Positions 1 through 13,129 of a stretch of 46,221 nt of DNA are shown here, piece by piece. Position 1 is the first letter of the stretch, and each line of letters begins with the position of its first letter. The position numbers and the translations under genes were made by a program. The DNA is from Candidatus Calescibacterium sp. (GTDB taxonomy: Bacteria > DRYD01): the NCBI GenBank assembly GCA_025057615.1, contig JANXBF010000007.1, positions 1 through 46,221 on the forward strand. The letters are read 5' to 3'. The notes under the pieces were generated by a model. That model worked only from the letters and a program-made list of their open reading frames with translations, was not told the DNA's origin and searched no databases.

Positions 1-473
1 ACATTTACCAGAAGTCTGATAAGCAATTTTTTAGATTTTCTGTCTCTTATTCGAATGTAAGGATTCTTAATACTGTTCCCAATGTTTTGGAATATTTACC
101 AAATTCACCCAAACTTTTAATACTTGCAAAGTATGGATGTAAGTTAGGAAACAATTTTTCTGCGGGATTAGAGTTAAAATATACTTCCAGAACATTGCCT
201 GATAATTACAAAATTCTGTCTGTAATTGGTGATAGTTGGGCACGAAGAGTAGATAGGGGTATTTTTGAAATACCACGGAGTATAAAACCTTTTTTATTGG
301 CAAATTTGACGTTGAAATATTACTTTGATGATAAAAATTATATGACTTTGTATATCTATAATCTTTTTAACGAAAAATATTATTATCCCATAAGTCTCAT
401 AAATTCCAGACCTATTTATAGTTACCCTGGCTTTAGGAGAAGTATATATCTAGGAATAAACTATACATTCTAA
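1..473 (+). CDS. TonB-dependent receptor, C-terminal part of the barrel (5' partial)
   Basis: The frame is open from the window edge (first full codon at position 3) to a TAA at 471-473, so only the C-terminal ~156 residues are visible. The sequence alternates polar and aromatic residues like outer-membrane beta-strands (for example NLTLKYYFDDKNYMTLYIYN). Near the end it has the layout typical of TonB-dependent receptors: NLFNEKYYYP, then a segment with YPGFRRSIYLG, and a last strand ending in the aromatic residue F. Such receptors import siderophores, vitamin B12 or sugars across the outer membrane using TonB energy. The plug domain and TonB box lie outside the window, so the substrate cannot be inferred. 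Another outer-membrane barrel family is possible, but the FNEKYY and P-G-R pattern favours a TonB receptor. Confidence 0.75.
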   Translation, partial: IYQKSDKQFFRFSVSYSNVRILNTVPNVLEYLPNSPKLLILAKYGCKLGNNFSAGLELKYTSRTLPDNYKILSVIGDSWARRVDRGIFEIPRSIKPFLLANLTLKYYFDDKNYMTLYIYNLFNEKYYYPISLINSRPIYSYPGFRRSIYLGINYTF

Positions 474-790: not shown

Positions 791-1621
791 TCAAATTTCT
801 ATTATATTTAATTTGGGGTAAAGTATTTTTATTTCTTTTTTTATATTTTTTGTATCCAATGTATTTTTCATGAGTTCTGCATTAAATGAATTAACTACGA
901 TTGAATATTTATGAGGCTTATTTTTCACAAAAATTTTATATTCTTTCATTATTTTGGGTATAGATTCATAATCTATTATTATTTTACCTAAGTTTTCAAG
1001 AACGTAAACTTGAGATTGTTGTAGGTTATTTATGTTAGATTTGTTCAATGATGATAATAGATTTATTTCTTTGTTCATAATAGTTTCTTTGTTAAATATG
1101 GGTATTTCAAACATTTCTACTATTCCTATTATTGTATCTATTATTTTTTGTGGATTTGTTGAGAATGTTGGTCCTATGATAAAGAATATTTCATTAGCGA
1201 AGGATAGAGATATTCTTCTGTCTGCTGCTCCATCTATTATTATTTCTTTTATATTTTTGAGTTCTTTTGTTGTTTTTTGTAAGAAAGTTTGGAATTGTTT
1301 AGTTGATGATGGACCTGCAATTTGAACAATATCGTTATCCAGCATTTTGTATACTTCTAATTGTCCCAAGAATTGGTTTTCTATTGGTAATTCGAGAATT
1401 TTTATAGATTTTGTAGGTTTCAGCTTACTGTATGTGCAAACAAAATTATCTTTTTTTACAAGTATCGATGGTTTTTTTATTCCGAAGATATGGTCTACAG
1501 CTTCTCCGTCCCATCCTATACTTGTTATAATATAGTTATCTTTTTTTTCAATATATCTATTTAGGAAAGTTGTTTTTCCAACGTTTTTTGATAGACCTAT
1601 GAAAGCTGTTATTTCAAACAT
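791..1621 (-). CDS. P-loop NTPase resembling aminomutase-reactivating proteins (KamB-like)
   Basis: The protein has 276 residues. A Walker A motif lies at the very N-terminus (GLSKNVGKTT, residues 9-18). It is followed by TSIGWDGEAVD, a KPSILV segment, VQIAGPSS in the middle and IIIDGAADRR about two thirds along. From memory, this order (SIGxDGExxD, KP, QIAGP, VDGAxxR) matches the NTPase encoded beside lysine 5,6-aminomutase and annotated as reactivase subunit KamB. That assignment is inference and no aminomutase is in view. It is the last gene of a (-) operon, one base after the 199-residue helical protein. Neighbours are a radical SAM enzyme and a membrane protease, so a role as an enzyme-reactivating or metallo-chaperone NTPase is possible but unproven. 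Confidence 0.5.
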   Translation of the reverse strand: MFEITAFIGLSKNVGKTTFLNRYIEKKDNYIITSIGWDGEAVDHIFGIKKPSILVKKDNFVCTYSKLKPTKSIKILELPIENQFLGQLEVYKMLDNDIVQIAGPSSTKQFQTFLQKTTKELKNIKEIIIDGAADRRISLSFANEIFFIIGPTFSTNPQKIIDTIIGIVEMFEIPIFNKETIMNKEINLLSSLNKSNINNLQQSQVYVLENLGKIIIDYESIPKIMKEYKIFVKNKPHKYSIVVNSFNAELMKNTLDTKNIKKEIKILYPKLNIIEI

Positions 1622-1622
1622 T

Positions 1623-2222
1623 TCACTGTTCTAATAGTTTTTCTACATTTTCGGAATATTCAGGTGGTATTAGTTTTTGTATCTGTGAAAAATAGAATAC
1701 CACTAATGGAAGGTTTTCTTTTATTTCTTCTAAAAGCGAGAGATTATTATTAAATATAATTTCATGTAACTTTTGTAGTATATTATAGTATGTTTTGAAT
1801 GCTTCTCCAAACATTATATCTACAAATGTTTTAAATACTATATCTTCGTCTTCTAGAGTCAAAATAGTTGAGACTATTTCTGCATTCATTAGCAATTTAT
1901 TCATTTCTGTTTTATAGAATTCATAAAGTTCTTCTTTGGTAACCATATTTTTTTTTATACTTTCTATGAGTGTTTCCCAGAATTTGTAAAAATTGGTGTT
2001 TTTTACTTCTTCAAAGATTATTTTGAGTTCCAGTGTTTTTATTTGTAGCAGTTTTTTGTATATTTCTTTTTCGTTATTTTCTTCTAAATTTTTGTTTATT
2101 TCCTCTATTATTGTTTTTGCTTCTTTTATTGAGTTTTGTAGTTCTTGGTTTACTTCTTGTTTTTCTAGTCTTTCTATTAATGTTTGTATATCTTGAAGTA
2201 TTATATATATTGTTTCTTTCAT
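1623..2222 (-). CDS. Helical, charged protein of unknown function
   Basis: This 199-residue protein is rich in Glu, Lys, Ile and Leu, with heptad-like runs (residues ~1-75) suggesting coiled coil. There is no signal peptide, no membrane segment and no Cys. The second half keeps long amphipathic helices with a few aromatics and ends near IQKLIPPEY. I recognise no family. Its ATG shares one base with the stop of the radical SAM gene upstream (TAATG at 2220-2224) and it ends one base before the KamB-like NTPase. It is therefore almost certainly translated with both. A scaffold or partner role for the NTPase or the radical SAM enzyme is conceivable, but nothing in the sequence shows it. Confidence 0.8.
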   Translation of the reverse strand: MKETIYIILQDIQTLIERLEKQEVNQELQNSIKEAKTIIEEINKNLEENNEKEIYKKLLQIKTLELKIIFEEVKNTNFYKFWETLIESIKKNMVTKEELYEFYKTEMNKLLMNAEIVSTILTLEDEDIVFKTFVDIMFGEAFKTYYNILQKLHEIIFNNNLSLLEEIKENLPLVVFYFSQIQKLIPPEYSENVEKLLEQ

Positions 2223-3517
2223 TATTGTATGTTACAGATTGGATCTTTGTATCCGAGTTTTTGGTATTTATCAAAAGATCTGAATATGCATCCTCCTCTG
2301 CATTCTGTTATGTATGTACAGTTCTGGCATTTAATGTCCTGATCTATTTTATTTATTTCCTTTTTTGCATTTTCTTTCCATATTTCTTTCAGTGTTTTTT
2401 CTTTTATGTTTCCTAAGGAGAACTTGTCTTTATACTTTAAGAACATTCCTGATGGTAATATATCTCCCAGTGCTGACAGGTAGGCGGTGGTTTTAGCGCA
2501 TCCGCATCCGAAGCTTTCGTATAACCCATTTTTCCCGAATTTCATTGGTATTCCAAAAAATTCCACATCTATTTTGGTTCTTTCTTTCATGTTAGAAATT
2601 ATTCTAACTATTTTTTCTATTTCTTGATTTGAAAGCAGTAATTCAGGATATTCTTCTGCTCTACCTACATTATATATGGGATAAAATGTTATACCATTTG
2701 CATTGAACTGTTCAGCAAAACTTAAAAAATTCGGTAAATATGTGTAGTTGTATTTATTTAAAACAAAAGAAAACCTTACATAGCATTTGTTATACTTTTT
2801 ATATTCATTTATTAATAACAGATTTTTTTTTAGTGTTTCAAATATGTTTTTACCTCTTATGTTATTATATTCTTTTGCATTTACAGCTTCTATAGATATT
2901 TTAAATTCCTGAATATTTATATTTTCTTGTAGAAATTTTTCTATGTCTGGAAATATCAATGAGGTTGATATGGAGATGTTCATTTTGTTTTGATCTGCTT
3001 TTTTGAGTATTTCTATGAATTCTTTTTTGAGGAATGGTTCTCCTCCTCCAAATGATACGTAGAATATACCATTGTTTTTGAGTTCATCTAAAAAATCCAG
3101 TATTTTTTGAGTTGATAATTCTTGGTTTAGTTCTTCATTAGTTTTTTTACCTGATTTTGAGAAACAGTGTTTGCATTTTAGTAAACATTCGTAAGTCAGT
3201 GCTATATGGAATTTTAGGGGAGAGGAAATGAATCTATTATTTAGATAAAATTCGAGGTTTTCATTACTTAATATTTCCACATTTGAAGAGTAGTTGTTAT
3301 CAATTATTTCTATTGATTGTATTAACTGTATAAAGCTTTTGAAATTTAGGTAGCTAAATCTGTGTGAAAAATATTTGTAATATAGATTATCAATATCTAT
3401 GTTTGGTTTTATATTGAGTATTATATTTGTTCCGTCTTGATCTATGGGTATGTACTCTCTTCTTTGTGTATCATATATTAGACTTCCGAAATACTCTATT
3501 CTTCCTATGAATCTCAT
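2222..3517 (-). CDS. Radical SAM/SPASM enzyme with an N-terminal PqqD-like region
   Basis: The 431-residue protein has the radical SAM cluster motif CLLKCKHC at residues 111-118 (CxxxCxxC) and FGGGEPF shortly after, the SAM-binding GGE segment. The C-terminal SPASM region holds Cys338 and Cys340, then CQNCTYITECRGGC (Cys397, 400, 406, 410) and Cys428, enough for auxiliary iron-sulfur clusters. Such enzymes modify peptides or proteins (PqqE, AlbA, anaerobic sulfatase-maturase types) or cofactor precursors. The first ~100 residues form a separate small domain resembling the PqqD/RRE peptide-binding fold by length and position, though similarity is weak. The gene overlaps the protease gene upstream by four bases (ATGA) and the helical-protein gene downstream by one. 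No precursor peptide is obvious nearby, so the substrate is unknown. Confidence 0.88.
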   Translation of the reverse strand: MRFIGRIEYFGSLIYDTQRREYIPIDQDGTNIILNIKPNIDIDNLYYKYFSHRFSYLNFKSFIQLIQSIEIIDNNYSSNVEILSNENLEFYLNNRFISSPLKFHIALTYECLLKCKHCFSKSGKKTNEELNQELSTQKILDFLDELKNNGIFYVSFGGGEPFLKKEFIEILKKADQNKMNISISTSLIFPDIEKFLQENINIQEFKISIEAVNAKEYNNIRGKNIFETLKKNLLLINEYKKYNKCYVRFSFVLNKYNYTYLPNFLSFAEQFNANGITFYPIYNVGRAEEYPELLLSNQEIEKIVRIISNMKERTKIDVEFFGIPMKFGKNGLYESFGCGCAKTTAYLSALGDILPSGMFLKYKDKFSLGNIKEKTLKEIWKENAKKEINKIDQDIKCQNCTYITECRGGCIFRSFDKYQKLGYKDPICNIQ

Positions 3518-4863
3518 TGTTTTTTATCTATTATTAGTATTAGATTTTCTACTTTTTTAATTTCAATTTCTTCGTTGTTTTCGAATTTTGTGTTTGGGTT
3601 TAGGGGAATGGCTTCCCATAAAACTCCATCTAAATTAACTATAAGTTTATCCCCTTGTATTTTTACAATCCTTCCTATTTTACCTATTTGTTCTATTGAG
3701 GAATATTTTCTTACTGATAATACTGCGTATAGTATATAACTGAATAATCCCAATATTGTTAAAGATGCTAGAGTTATTGTACCTATTGGTAAAGGATGAT
3801 AAATATTAACATTTTTGAATAATATTATTGATCCTAATATGAAAGTTATTAATCCCAAAAATGTTAAGATACCATAAGACTGAAACTTGAGTTCAAGTAG
3901 CATAAGGATAAAGGAGAATATTATGAATATTATACCGAGAATATTTGCTGATATTATGCCTAATCCAAATAGTCCTAAACTCAAACATATGATACCGACA
4001 ATTAAGGGAACCAGACTTCCTGGATGGTTTAGTTCTATTATTATTGCCCAGAAGCCTATTGTTAGTAAAAAATAGGCTATTGATGGATTTGCAATGAATA
4101 GAAAGAAACTTTCTATAAGGTTGGGATTTTCTCTTGTATATTCTATTTTTTTAAAATTTCTCAATGTAATTTCGGTCATTGTGTCAAGTATTATTGGTTT
4201 ATTTTTTATTTTTTCAAATATTTCATTGGGTTCTTGAGCTATCAGATCTATGATATTTTTATTGAGTGACTCTTTTTCGGTATATGATGTTGCATTTACA
4301 ACAGTTTCTTTAACAGCTTCATAGTTTTTGTTTCTTTTTTGACATAGATTTCTTGTGAAAGCTAATAGATCTTGAATGATCTTATTTTGTAGAGTTGGAT
4401 CTTGAACTAAGGGTGTTGATGCACCGGTGTTCGTTGATTCCGACATTACTGACACATGTCCTGCTATTAAGATGAACATTGCTGCTGATGCAGCTCTACT
4501 CCCTTTGGGATAAACATATGTTATTACTGGGTGGCTGGAATTGAAAAATACTTTTATAATTTCCATCATTGAATTTAGTAATCCACCTTCACTGTCTATC
4601 GTTATCATTATGAAATCAATATCTTTATTTTTGTATTTGTTGAATTTATTATTGAGGTACCATGAAGTTGCTGGTGTTATTGGTCCTGATATTTCTAATA
4701 CTAATACTTTTATTGTGTCTTTCTCTATTTTTTTATGTTGTAATGGTAATGTTGGTTTATATTGGGGAGTATTTGTTGTTATTTTTGAAAATGTTATACC
4801 TAAAAAAAAGAATGCGTATAGCAATAACGTTATGTATAAAAGGAAGTAGCTTTTTTGAGGCAT
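3514..4863 (-). CDS. nfeD: NfeD/ClpP-type membrane serine protease
   Basis: The protein is 449 residues long. An N-terminal membrane anchor or signal (residues ~7-26) is followed by a ClpP-like domain (~50-215). Its signatures are ITIDSEGGLLNSMM, corresponding to the oxyanion Gly region, and GSRAASAAMFI containing the likely nucleophile Ser126; STNTGASTPL follows. The middle (~245-370) has four to five hydrophobic helices. The C-terminus (~390-445) is a small NfeD OB-fold domain (KIGRIVKIQGDKLIVNLDG). In the archaeal homologue this family cleaves membrane-protein C-termini such as stomatin, and bacterial members are tied to membrane quality control. No stomatin gene is adjacent here; the flanking genes are ruvC and a radical SAM enzyme. 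Overlap with the downstream gene implies translational coupling. Confidence 0.9.
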   Translation of the reverse strand: MPQKSYFLLYITLLLYAFFFLGITFSKITTNTPQYKPTLPLQHKKIEKDTIKVLVLEISGPITPATSWYLNNKFNKYKNKDIDFIMITIDSEGGLLNSMMEIIKVFFNSSHPVITYVYPKGSRAASAAMFILIAGHVSVMSESTNTGASTPLVQDPTLQNKIIQDLLAFTRNLCQKRNKNYEAVKETVVNATSYTEKESLNKNIIDLIAQEPNEIFEKIKNKPIILDTMTEITLRNFKKIEYTRENPNLIESFFLFIANPSIAYFLLTIGFWAIIIELNHPGSLVPLIVGIICLSLGLFGLGIISANILGIIFIIFSFILMLLELKFQSYGILTFLGLITFILGSIILFKNVNIYHPLPIGTITLASLTILGLFSYILYAVLSVRKYSSIEQIGKIGRIVKIQGDKLIVNLDGVLWEAIPLNPNTKFENNEEIEIKKVENLILIIDKKQ

Positions 4864-4864
4864 A

Positions 4865-5398
4865 TCACTTAGGATTAAGTTTTATAAATGATAAAGCTAT
4901 GGCTATTGCATCTGTTATATCATCAATAATTTGTTTTTTTTCTATTTGTCCATTGAATTTACAAAGTATTTCTTGTTGAATTTCTTTTTTGTTTGCATTT
5001 CCTTTATTTGCTATTACTTTTTTTACCTGTGTTGGATTAATCAGAAATAGAGGGGTATTGAGTTGAGTGCAGGCAAGGTTTATTACTCCTATTGCTTGAC
5101 TTACTTCAAAAGCAGTTTTTCTATTTAAATAGTAATATAGTCTTTCTATGACCACTGTTTGTGGTTTATATTTTTTTATTAGTTTTTTTGTGTATTCATA
5201 TATTTGTTTTATTCTTAGGTTATGTTGCTGAGAGTTAACTGGCATTAAGCCATATTTGATTATTTTGGTTTTTTGTTTCTTTTGGTTTTCAAGGATTGCG
5301 AATCCCACTCTTGTTGTTCCTGCATCTATACCTAGGATTTTTTGAGATGGAGATTTTCGATTTAGGTTATTGCTGTTTGACTTTTCTCTAAGCTTCAT
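4865..5398 (-). CDS. ruvC: Crossover junction endodeoxyribonuclease RuvC
   Basis: RuvC resolves Holliday junctions as a dimer in homologous recombination. Counting from the ATG at 5398 (177 residues), the acidic catalytic set is visible: Asp25 in ILGIDAGTTRVG, Glu85 in VVIERLYY, and Asp160/Asp163 in DDITDAIAIAL. A longer form from a TTG at 5425 is possible. I prefer the ATG because RuvC normally starts close to the first catalytic Asp and even this form has ~20 extra residues. The ATG overlaps the preceding coiled-coil gene by 11 bases, and the stop is one base before nfeD. ruvA and ruvB are not in the window. Confidence 0.92.
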   Translation of the reverse strand: MKLREKSNSNNLNRKSPSQKILGIDAGTTRVGFAILENQKKQKTKIIKYGLMPVNSQQHNLRIKQIYEYTKKLIKKYKPQTVVIERLYYYLNRKTAFEVSQAIGVINLACTQLNTPLFLINPTQVKKVIANKGNANKKEIQQEILCKFNGQIEKKQIIDDITDAIAIALSFIKLNPK

Positions 5399-5843
5399 AT
5401 TCTTTATAATTAATGATTTCTTCAAGTTTTTTGTTAATTTCTTTTATTTCTTCCAATTTTATGACTCCTGAATTTATTTTTTCTCTTACTTGTTCTAATA
5501 TTTCTTTTTTGAGTGTTTCAATATACTCTATGAAACTATAGGCTATGTTTATAAAATGTTCATGGATATCTATTGCTGAATCATGAATGGATAACAAAAC
5601 GTTTTTCACTTCTGCACTTATTTCAGAATTATTTTCATCTTCTTCTCTTTTTTTTAATGTTTCTTCTAACATTTCTTGGATTTGTTCAATATCGGTTTCT
5701 ATTCCTTTTTTTAGTTCATCCAATTTGTATTTTTCTTTTAATTCTGTTATATTTTGATTGTTTTCTATTTCCTCTGAAAAGTTTTTTAAATACTTGAGAA
5801 TATTGTTAAAATGTTCTATTATTGATATTCCTTGTTTTGACAT
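5388..5843 (-). CDS. Coiled-coil protein of unknown function, first gene of the (-) operon
   Basis: This 151-residue, strongly charged protein is rich in Glu, Lys and Ile with long predicted helices (residues ~15-75 and ~105-148). It has no signal peptide, membrane segment or Cys. A short middle stretch has three His (SIHDSAIDIHEHF), which could be structural or metal-binding. An AAGG sequence about seven bases before the ATG can serve as ribosome-binding site. It overlaps ruvC by 11 bases and so is the likely promoter-proximal gene of the six-gene unit running down to 791. I do not recognise the family. The high Glu/Lys coiled-coil character is shared with the 199-residue protein later in the operon. 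Confidence 0.75.
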   Translation of the reverse strand: MSKQGISIIEHFNNILKYLKNFSEEIENNQNITELKEKYKLDELKKGIETDIEQIQEMLEETLKKREEDENNSEISAEVKNVLLSIHDSAIDIHEHFINIAYSFIEYIETLKKEILEQVREKINSGVIKLEEIKEINKKLEEIINYKEYEA

Positions 5844-6228
5844 TTTGATAACCTTATTTATCTATCATTTTATTATCATTTTATTATTTATCAACAGTGG
5901 TTAATAGTAGTTTTTTAGATTAATTGAATAAGTCCTTCATAAAAAAGTATAGGAAATACGTTGTTATTTTTGATAATTTTAATTTTTATTGATAAAGAGC
6001 AATATTTTTGAAGAAATTTTAAACCCTTGTTAATATTGTAAAAAAAGTGTTTTCGGAAAGTCTTGAAAATACTAGAATTAAGAAGATGATTTTTCAAAAA
6101 ATAAAATTTTATGTGGTTAAAATATATTTGATTGTCATTTTTTTTATTTTTCAAAGAGGAAAGTTTTTCGATTTATGTAATTAGTATATTGTAAATTAAA
6201 GTACTACATCACAGGAGGTGAAAGATAG
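5844..6228 (-). other. AT-rich divergent intergenic region with a short tandem repeat
   Basis: This 385-bp space separates the (-) ruvC/radical SAM operon from the HU gene and must hold the promoters of both. It is extremely AT-rich. A perfect tandem repeat of ATCATTTTATT lies at 5864-5885, about 20 bases upstream of the (-) operon start, followed by TTATCAACA (one mismatch from a DnaA box). On the HU side a TATATT (6185-6190) could be a -10 box, but no convincing -35 is visible. A 79-codon (-) frame at 5915-6154 looks like chance. No RNA gene was recognised. Confidence 0.5.
6213..6221 (+). promoter_or_regulatory. Strong Shine-Dalgarno sequence of the HU gene
   Basis: AGGAGGTGA lies seven bases before the ATG at 6229. 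It is one of the few near-perfect Shine-Dalgarno sequences in the window and fits a highly expressed DNA-binding protein. Confidence 0.85.
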
Positions 6229-6546
6229 ATGCCAAAAGCAAAGACGACACCTAAAATGGTCAGCAAGAAGGAATTAGTAGAGTCCATGGTAAAGTGGGTA
6301 GAGAAAAATAAGGGAATGCAAGTAACCAAGAAAGAAACTGAAGTTATACTAAAAGCCTTCTTGGAAACAGTAGTGGAATTCTTGAAAAAAGGAACAAAAG
6401 TTCAATTGGTTCCATATGGAAGTTGGGAAGTAAGACACAGATCATCAAGAAAAGGAAGAAACCCAAGAACTGGCCAAGAAATAAATATACCAGCAAGAAA
6501 AGTCCCTGTTTTCAAAGTTGGTAAGAGAATGAAAGAAGCTGTCTAA
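6229..6546 (+). CDS. hup: HU-family histone-like DNA-binding protein
   Basis: The 105-residue protein has the HU fold. The helical dimerisation half (VSKKELVESMVKWVEKN, residues ~11-28) is followed by the YGSWEVRHRSSRKGRNPRTG stretch. That carries the DNA-contacting beta-arm, with the conserved RNP, and the protein ends IPARKVPVFKVGKRMKEAV. HU bends and compacts DNA and supports replication, recombination and transcription. An extra basic N-terminal stretch (MPKAKTTPKM) precedes the usual start. The gene stands alone, with its own strong ribosome-binding site and terminator. Codon use differs visibly from the neighbours (more AAG, GGA and AGA, and fewer T-ending codons), consistent with high expression. 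Confidence 0.95.
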   Translation: MPKAKTTPKMVSKKELVESMVKWVEKNKGMQVTKKETEVILKAFLETVVEFLKKGTKVQLVPYGSWEVRHRSSRKGRNPRTGQEINIPARKVPVFKVGKRMKEAV

Positions 6547-12747: not shown

Positions 12748-13129
12748 TCATAAGAATAATAGAATAAGAAAGTTATGTAATAAGGTTTATTATTTTATCA
12801 TTAAGGTTTTTCCAACTTTGTCTGAAAAATTTTTTATTATAGATTTTGTTGATCCTTATCAAATTAGAAAAATTAAAAATAGTATTTGGAATAAGAATGT
12901 GTTTACGGATACGGTAACTTTAATATTTGATGATTGTGTTCATATTTATTTATGTCTTGATATAATTAAAAAAAATTCTTACAGGTATGGTAAATCTTTT
13001 GAGGATGAGTTAATTTTTGTTTTGTTGCATTCTTTTCTCCACAGTCTTAATAAAGATGAGAATGAAGTATCTGTTATTCAGCATGATCTATTTAGGCGAT
13101 TTTATGAGGAAGTTATAAAAAATGAGTAA
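12725..13129 (+). CDS. ybeY: Divergent YbeY-like endoribonuclease (rRNA maturation)
   Basis: YbeY is a zinc endoribonuclease for 16S rRNA processing and ribosome quality control. The 134-residue protein aligns over its second half: TDTVTLIF takes the place of TDVLSFPF, IYLCLDIIKKNS the place of GDIxIcldxaxxqA, and ELIFVLLHSFLHSLNKDE the place of ELxxLxxHGxLHLxGYDH. Two zinc-ligand His are kept (His102, His106), but the third His is Glu112 and the GY before the Asp is lost. Position between pgpH and dgkA is the normal ybeY place, which supports the call despite divergence. It overlaps pgpH by 23 bases and dgkA by 8. It may still bind metal (His2Glu), or activity may have changed. Confidence 0.72.
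   Translation: MRKKMVINHKNNRIRKLCNKVYYFIIKVFPTLSEKFFIIDFVDPYQIRKIKNSIWNKNVFTDTVTLIFDDCVHIYLCLDIIKKNSYRYGKSFEDELIFVLLHSFLHSLNKDENEVSVIQHDLFRRFYEEVIKNE

Follow-up and report, generated by a model that had tools for sequence, protein, structure and literature searches.

The question raised by this locus is which protein a radical SAM (S-adenosylmethionine) enzyme works with. In contig JANXBF010000007.1 of Candidatus Calescibacterium sp. (assembly GCA_025057615.1), analysed over its whole length of 46,221 nucleotides and called the window here, a radical SAM/SPASM protein of 431 amino acids (aa) is encoded at 2222-3517 on the minus strand. Immediately upstream on the same strand, at 3514-4863, lies the gene for a 449-aa NfeD1b-type membrane protease, a relative of PH1510, and the stop codon of the protease gene and the start codon of the radical SAM gene share the four bases ATGA (3514-3517). 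The first-pass annotation was right to note this overlap within a compact operon, and it suggested that the two genes could form a system for modifying and cleaving a peptide or protein at the membrane. The comparisons below point elsewhere: the most likely working unit consists of the radical enzyme and the product of the next gene downstream, a cysteine-free, all-helical protein of 199 aa (1623-2222, minus strand).

Seven genomes of this small phylum, each 71-90% complete, were compared. Six of them make up the family, divided between the window's genus (the window's own genome G000, G001, G002 and G003) and a sister genus (G004 and G005), and the seventh, G006, belongs to a sister family; outside the phylum the sample holds about one genome per family. 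The radical SAM gene and the gene for the 199-aa helical protein are adjacent and on the same strand in 6/6 family genomes, at distances from a four-base overlap to a 51-base gap. In the sister genus they are separated by 51 bases in G004 and 27 bases in G005, and there the helical protein gene is the only operon neighbour that the radical SAM gene retains; in G004 the ruvC, NfeD, KamB-like and 151-aa protein genes have all moved away from it. The helical protein is found in all seven phylum genomes and in none of 283 other sampled genomes, and the N-terminal domain of the enzyme has the same distribution (the same seven genomes, 0/379 others). The count for the helical protein was made with profile A7 and includes the rows from which that profile was built; the initial detection of the G006 protein came from A2, a profile without a G006 row. 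In the window the stop codon of the radical SAM gene and the start codon of the helical protein gene have one base in common (TAATG), so translation of these two genes is likely to be coupled too. Furthermore, the radical SAM, helical protein, KamB-like and NfeD genes are under purifying selection, with ratios of nonsynonymous to synonymous substitution rates (dN/dS) of 0.05-0.14 in 11 pairwise comparisons, values that are only rough because dS exceeds 1 in eight of the 11.

The model of the helical protein contains eight helices with a mean predicted local distance difference test score (pLDDT) of 81.3, and its tail (residues 190-199) falls below 50. Foldseek returned nothing below an E-value of 0.39 for this fold, and the best VIA-align match (Z 11.2 over 77 residues) is at chance level for helical bundles. 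Several candidate relationships were not accepted: Pfam Chalcone_2 (9.4e-05, 22.8 bits against a cut-off of 27), a Helicobacter peptidyl-prolyl isomerase chain (best E-value in the PDB search only 0.0041), the operon's 151-aa helical protein (P-value 0.12) and a helical protein near the outside enzyme L065 (P-value 0.054). The helical protein has no cysteine in any of the seven genomes, which speaks against thioether chemistry taking place on it.

The membrane protease is, on its sequence, an ordinary NfeD1b. Its frame matches the Pfam models NfeD_membrane (1.6e-18) and CLP_protease (0.00035) above their cut-offs and NfeD1b_N (1.5e-07) and the C-terminal NfeD model below theirs, and all three parts of an NfeD1b protein are present: a ClpP-class domain with Ser/Lys, an NfeD membrane domain and a C-terminal NfeD domain. 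Its profile matches the Pyrococcus 1510-N protease (PDB 2deo) with an E-value of 2.8e-46. Ser126 and Lys161, which we take to be the catalytic pair, are invariant in the six aligned rows, and the window protein looks catalytically intact. The protease domain and both residues are thus shared with NfeD1b/1510-N of Pyrococcus (PDB 2deo, 3bpp); unlike that system, the window operon has no stomatin-type gene, although Band_7 proteins exist in 6/7 phylum genomes.

In the scheme proposed in the first-pass annotation, a peptide or protein would first be modified by the radical enzyme and the product then cut at the membrane by this protease. The tight overlap, the common operon in the window's genus and the apparently intact active site would all suit such a scheme, but it is very unlikely given where the two genes are found. 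The places where NfeD adjoins the radical SAM gene, namely the window, G002 and two G001 contigs, all belong to one genus; in G003 the junction is not readable because the contig starts inside the radical SAM gene. Adjacency inside this genus tells little, since its genomes are collinear: window 830-6546 forms a single block against G002 and gene order agrees to approximately window position 13100. In G004 the protease gene lies on another contig (C17) between uridine-kinase-type and LuxE-like genes, and in G006 it and the radical SAM homologue are on different contigs, neither neighbouring the other on the readable sides. G005 yielded no NfeD, but with this genome 87% complete and others in the phylum similarly partial, its absence counts for little on its own. 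The gene of this enzyme occurs within the 1.5-kb flank at only two of the 30 best NfeD loci, both from the window's genus, and NfeD is present at 0/29 radical SAM loci, only three of which (L007, L065 and L066) belong to this enzyme's own family; in this survey 24/29 radical SAM loci and 29/30 NfeD loci, the latter being the 30 best matches, showed their own gene at the threshold. One of the NfeD loci, G001:C7, holds just the first 62 residues of the radical enzyme before the contig ends, which is below the frame cut-off. Meanwhile, NfeD is widespread, with profile matches in 158/192 sampled genomes when weak and partial ones are counted. The coupled system was therefore rejected, the pair not being conserved beyond one genus; the protease looks like a chance neighbour and is read here as an operon neighbour only, and the coupling for which the locus was first singled out is not supported. 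As a separate observation, the G001 assembly holds two versions of the NfeD-radical SAM junction, on contigs C7 and C162 (L048 and L047), with 71% and 56% identity to the window for NfeD and 82% and 71% for the radical enzyme; these reflect either an additional copy or the presence of another species in the bin.

The N-terminal domain of the enzyme comprises its first 95 residues (3233-3517, minus strand). The AlphaFold model of the whole protein has a mean pLDDT of 79.8 and a predicted template modelling score of 0.84, and residues 1-70 score 87-94 in blocks of ten. It begins with strands at 3-8, 11-16 and 21-26 and helices at 27-35, 42-50 and 56-68, followed by the barrel and the SPASM region. 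A strict definition of the RRE, the recognition element of ribosomally synthesized and post-translationally modified peptides (RiPPs), asks for three strands and then three helices in that order (PMC12710340), which is the order predicted for residues 3-68. With the whole model, the best Foldseek match in the PDB is the streptide maturase SuiB (E 2.0e-19). By VIA-align, the sporulation killing factor maturase SkfB (Z 29.3, 346 residues aligned, root-mean-square deviation 3.7) and SuiB (Z 28.4, 389 residues, 4.1) align from model residue 1, as parts of whole-enzyme alignments, while PqqE (Z 23.2) aligns from residue 95 on and anSME (Z 22.7) from residue 99 on. A full sequence profile of the enzyme also aligns to SuiB over query positions 6-432 (2.7e-11). 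The suggestion made earlier that an extra domain of about 100 residues may be RRE- or PqqD-like thus has the support of predicted structure for the N-terminal 70 or so residues, and the two best matches of the whole model are RRE-bearing maturases.

Within this domain E21, Y22, I23, P24, D26 and D28 are invariant in 7/7 aligned sequences, making the third strand (21-26) and the residues just after it the best conserved part. Two of the seven, L065 and L066, come from outside the seven phylum genomes and were found by scanning genome contigs with two short patterns, a search that may miss distant relatives. Their identities are 34% and 28%, respectively, and the SPASM part of L066 is incomplete. 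L065 is from a metagenome-assembled genome labelled Bacillota and L066 from one labelled Armatimonadetes; these names were given by the depositors, under whose labels L064, which is a member of the family, figures as Deltaproteobacteria. The placement of both outside sequences is therefore provisional, and their labels may be wrong. In known cases leader peptides bind the third RRE strand, with SuiB as the sole exception (PMC12710340). The proposal in the first-pass annotation had hung on both an RRE-type domain and a recurring neighbourhood of the two overlapping genes: the former stands by structure, and the latter does not reach beyond one genus.

The catalytic core is that of a radical SAM enzyme, with Pfam matches to Radical_SAM (6.2e-17) and SPASM (1.9e-07; 31.7 against a cut-off of 21.5). 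The CxxxCxxC motif of the SAM-binding 4Fe-4S cluster lies at residues 111-118 (3164-3187, minus strand), and Cys111, Cys115 and Cys118 are invariant in the six family members; the window protein has the motif of the superfamily and, in the model, its barrel. The SPASM region (residues 338-428; 2234-2506, minus strand) carries seven conserved cysteines, at 338, 340, 397, 400, 406, 410 and 428, with the additional cysteine forming a CGC element at 338-340; in the model, pLDDT values fall below 50 at 322-341 and 388-409, where some of the cluster cysteines lie. Enzymes with two auxiliary clusters follow the pattern CX9-15GX4C - CX2CX5CX3C - C, and the window family departs from it at a single position, reading GX4S in place of GX4C in 6/6 members. 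The serine, Ser356 (2450-2452, minus strand), replaces the cysteine expected to bind auxiliary cluster I, so the cluster set is not the full one that had been described for this protein. The position is Gly in the G006 homologue L052 and Cys in L059, L065, L066 and L067. Here L059 is a second radical SAM protein of G006; alignments A5 and A6 were made without it and L052, and the folding alignment without L078. With seven cysteines the enzyme is one short of the eight needed to ligate two 4Fe-4S clusters fully by Cys. The same shortage has been discussed for AlbA, alongside open sites in CteB and SkfB and a serine that acts as ligand in LipA (PMC6231123); by analogy, auxiliary cluster I could have either a serine ligand or an open site.

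Another reading would have the enzyme act on a small molecule or cofactor of the heme, tungsten or peptide-derived type, with the N-terminal domain as a leftover. The best NCBIfam profiles include the mycofactocin maturase MftC, NirJ2, AhbD and a tungsten-cofactor maturase, and the authors of RRE-Finder report non-RiPP radical SAM enzymes among their false positives (PMC7470986). MftC (TIGR03962) is the best of these profiles, matching residues 96-428 with 116.5 bits. Against this, the 25 best of 62 matching NCBIfam profiles all score far below their curated cut-offs, MftC among them (265 bits), and the MftC match begins past the N-terminal domain, which is conserved and not decaying, also in L065 and L066. 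Heme, pyrroloquinoline quinone and mycofactocin enzyme identities were rejected on these scores (AhbD, 93.4 against 500), and a small-molecule role is judged improbable.

Comparison with characterised peptide maturases is closer. SkfB (PDB 6efn), the top VIA-align match, has the same order of RRE, radical SAM and C-terminal cluster domains, but identity is 16%, and SkfB has a one-cluster Twitch domain and acts on a short precursor peptide (PMC6231123), whereas the window enzyme has a seven-cysteine SPASM region and no precursor gene was found beside the pair. SuiB (PDB 5v1q, 5v1s, 5v1t) shares the RRE, radical SAM and SPASM order, with Z-scores of 27.5-28.4 across some 390 residues (SkfB scores 1 to 2 higher); it differs in having 16-18% identity and two fully ligated auxiliary clusters (PMC6231123), where the window enzyme has GX4S and again no precursor was found beside it. 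AlbA, the subtilosin A maturase, makes thioethers between Cys and an alpha-carbon, and in this chemistry it differs from the window system with its cysteine-free helical partner. By description, it resembles the window enzyme in having seven cysteines for two auxiliary clusters, for which an open site or a non-Cys ligand has been proposed (PMC6231123).

These likenesses would also suit a RiPP maturase of the ordinary kind, acting on a short precursor peptide from a gene located elsewhere, with the helical protein as a scaffold or chaperone. SkfB and SuiB, with which the enzyme shares its build, act on short peptides (PMC6231123), and gene order changes fast here: 18 of the 24 genes that could be tested have no neighbour in common between genera. 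That comparison used reciprocal best hits at an E-value of 1e-8 over 60% of the shorter protein and covered G002:C3 and parts of G004 (the whole of C28, 120 of 155 kb of C6 and 12 of 30 kb of C17). The first-pass annotation had suggested looking for small conserved peptides near homologues, but no conserved small frame lies beside the pair, a result that applies to these loci and not to whole genomes. Between the radical SAM and helical protein genes there is no room for a peptide gene, and upstream there is no conserved one. In G005 a frame of 26 codons, which has a good ribosome site, lies upstream of the gene; it was rejected as a precursor, having no counterpart in the other six genomes except a hit of E 0.7 in G003. 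Overall, a precursor encoded elsewhere seems unlikely, if less so than a small-molecule substrate.

The reading favoured here, still given somewhat less than an even chance, is that of a three-domain enzyme of the SkfB/SuiB type, with an RRE-like clamp, a radical SAM barrel and a SPASM tail, acting as a phylum-restricted maturase with the helical protein as its partner or substrate; the modification itself is inferred. The N-terminal domain would grip a stretch of the helical protein, with the third strand, where its conservation is highest, as the likeliest binding site. The barrel would then make a 5'-deoxyadenosyl radical that abstracts a hydrogen from a residue of the helical protein, and the SPASM clusters would pass on an electron; in auxiliary cluster I, Ser356 would be a ligand or the site would stay open. 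The helical protein would serve as a substrate protein dedicated to the enzyme, or would carry and present one, in place of a short precursor peptide, and NfeD would take no part, sharing a transcript in one genus only.

The G006 homologue (L052 406-1767, minus strand) keeps the N-terminal domain (3.6e-19) together with SPASM cysteines, but both CxxxCxxC and GGGEP are gone, and so it lacks the motif that defines the superfamily. The frame is open without stops, with one short unknown stretch, and adjoins a T2SSF-domain gene; the helical protein of G006 is encoded on another contig and its conserved PxEY tail is still present. The enzyme family may thus also act as a clamp. A more specific version of the favoured reading follows, and it is possible but doubtful: a phylum-restricted protein-maturation pair in which an RRE-bearing radical SAM/SPASM enzyme with a Ser-substituted cluster has the folded, cysteine-free 199-aa protein as its substrate, the sister-family enzyme being a catalytically dead clamp where the helical protein persists. 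Taken further, the enzyme might be a non-catalytic scaffold or clamp throughout, holding the helical protein with radical chemistry secondary. The stop-free G006 frame, with its N-terminal domain and SPASM cysteines intact and its SAM-cluster motif gone, is what such a scaffold would look like, but CxxxCxxC and GGGEP are kept in all six family members and in L065 and L066, and this is the most improbable of the explanations considered.

Several results weigh against an enzyme that modifies the helical protein. In G006 the radical motifs are lost and the helical protein is kept, so its conservation is independent of the radical chemistry, which argues that it has a role without need of modification. 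Retention of a neighbour is not rare, since six of the 24 testable genes keep one between genera, two of these being the radical SAM and helical protein genes themselves, and retention of the pair alone is therefore moderate evidence. No helical partner lies next to the enzyme in the outside relatives L065 and L066. The N-terminal domain by itself has no relevant match in the PDB (E-values up to 10) or Pfam; no PqqD or RRE entry, of the kind suggested for residues 1-100 in the first-pass annotation, was matched. RREs are described as sequence-divergent (PMC12710340). Finally, SuiB is at once among the two nearest structures and the very exception in which the leader does not bind the third strand (same source).

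The pair sits in a tight run of six genes, all on the minus strand, as the first-pass annotation had described with its ruvC, two coiled-coil proteins and P-loop NTPase: a 151-aa helical protein (5388-5843), the Holliday junction resolvase gene ruvC (4865-5425; Pfam and NCBIfam), NfeD, the radical SAM gene, the 199-aa helical protein gene and a P-loop protein gene (791-1621). The 151-aa open frame scores 22.5 bits for ArAE_1_C, just above the cut-off of 22.4, and that identity was not accepted. The P-loop protein is related to KamB reactivases (119 bits, below the cut-off of 210), KamB being the reactivase of lysine 5,6-aminomutase. It is matched in 7/7 phylum genomes and lies away from the radical SAM-helical protein pair in G004 and G005. 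Next to the KamB-like gene stands one for a GTPase, FeoB-like in G004 and EngA-like in G006; G005 has a similar neighbour. Contig G000:C22 ends in a second KamB-like gene, a partial one (L079 9531-9935), whose neighbours were identified by eye as thioredoxin, PGK and Clp genes; it has 87% identity to the window copy, and the G003 copy, in the same place in the gene order, has 96%. This second gene reflects either a duplication or a mixed bin.

Downstream of the operon and convergent to it, the window encodes a TonB-dependent receptor (3-473, plus strand). One or two genes separate a receptor of this type from the helical protein gene in the window, G002, G004 and G005 (loci L046, L050 and L051), and in the latter three it is followed by a protein of 273-303 aa, which in G004 is of the ABC substrate-binding type. 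G001:C162 and G003 lack the receptor and have PGK, Clp and, in G001, thioredoxin genes (named by eye) instead.

Radical enzymes with a peptide clamp are described from the maturation of short peptides. If the pairing proposed here is true, these enzymes would extend to the maturation of a protein, and of a folded helical one. Furthermore, an uncultured lineage would gain a testable, lineage-specific modification, centred on a helical protein that was found throughout the phylum and nowhere else in the sample.

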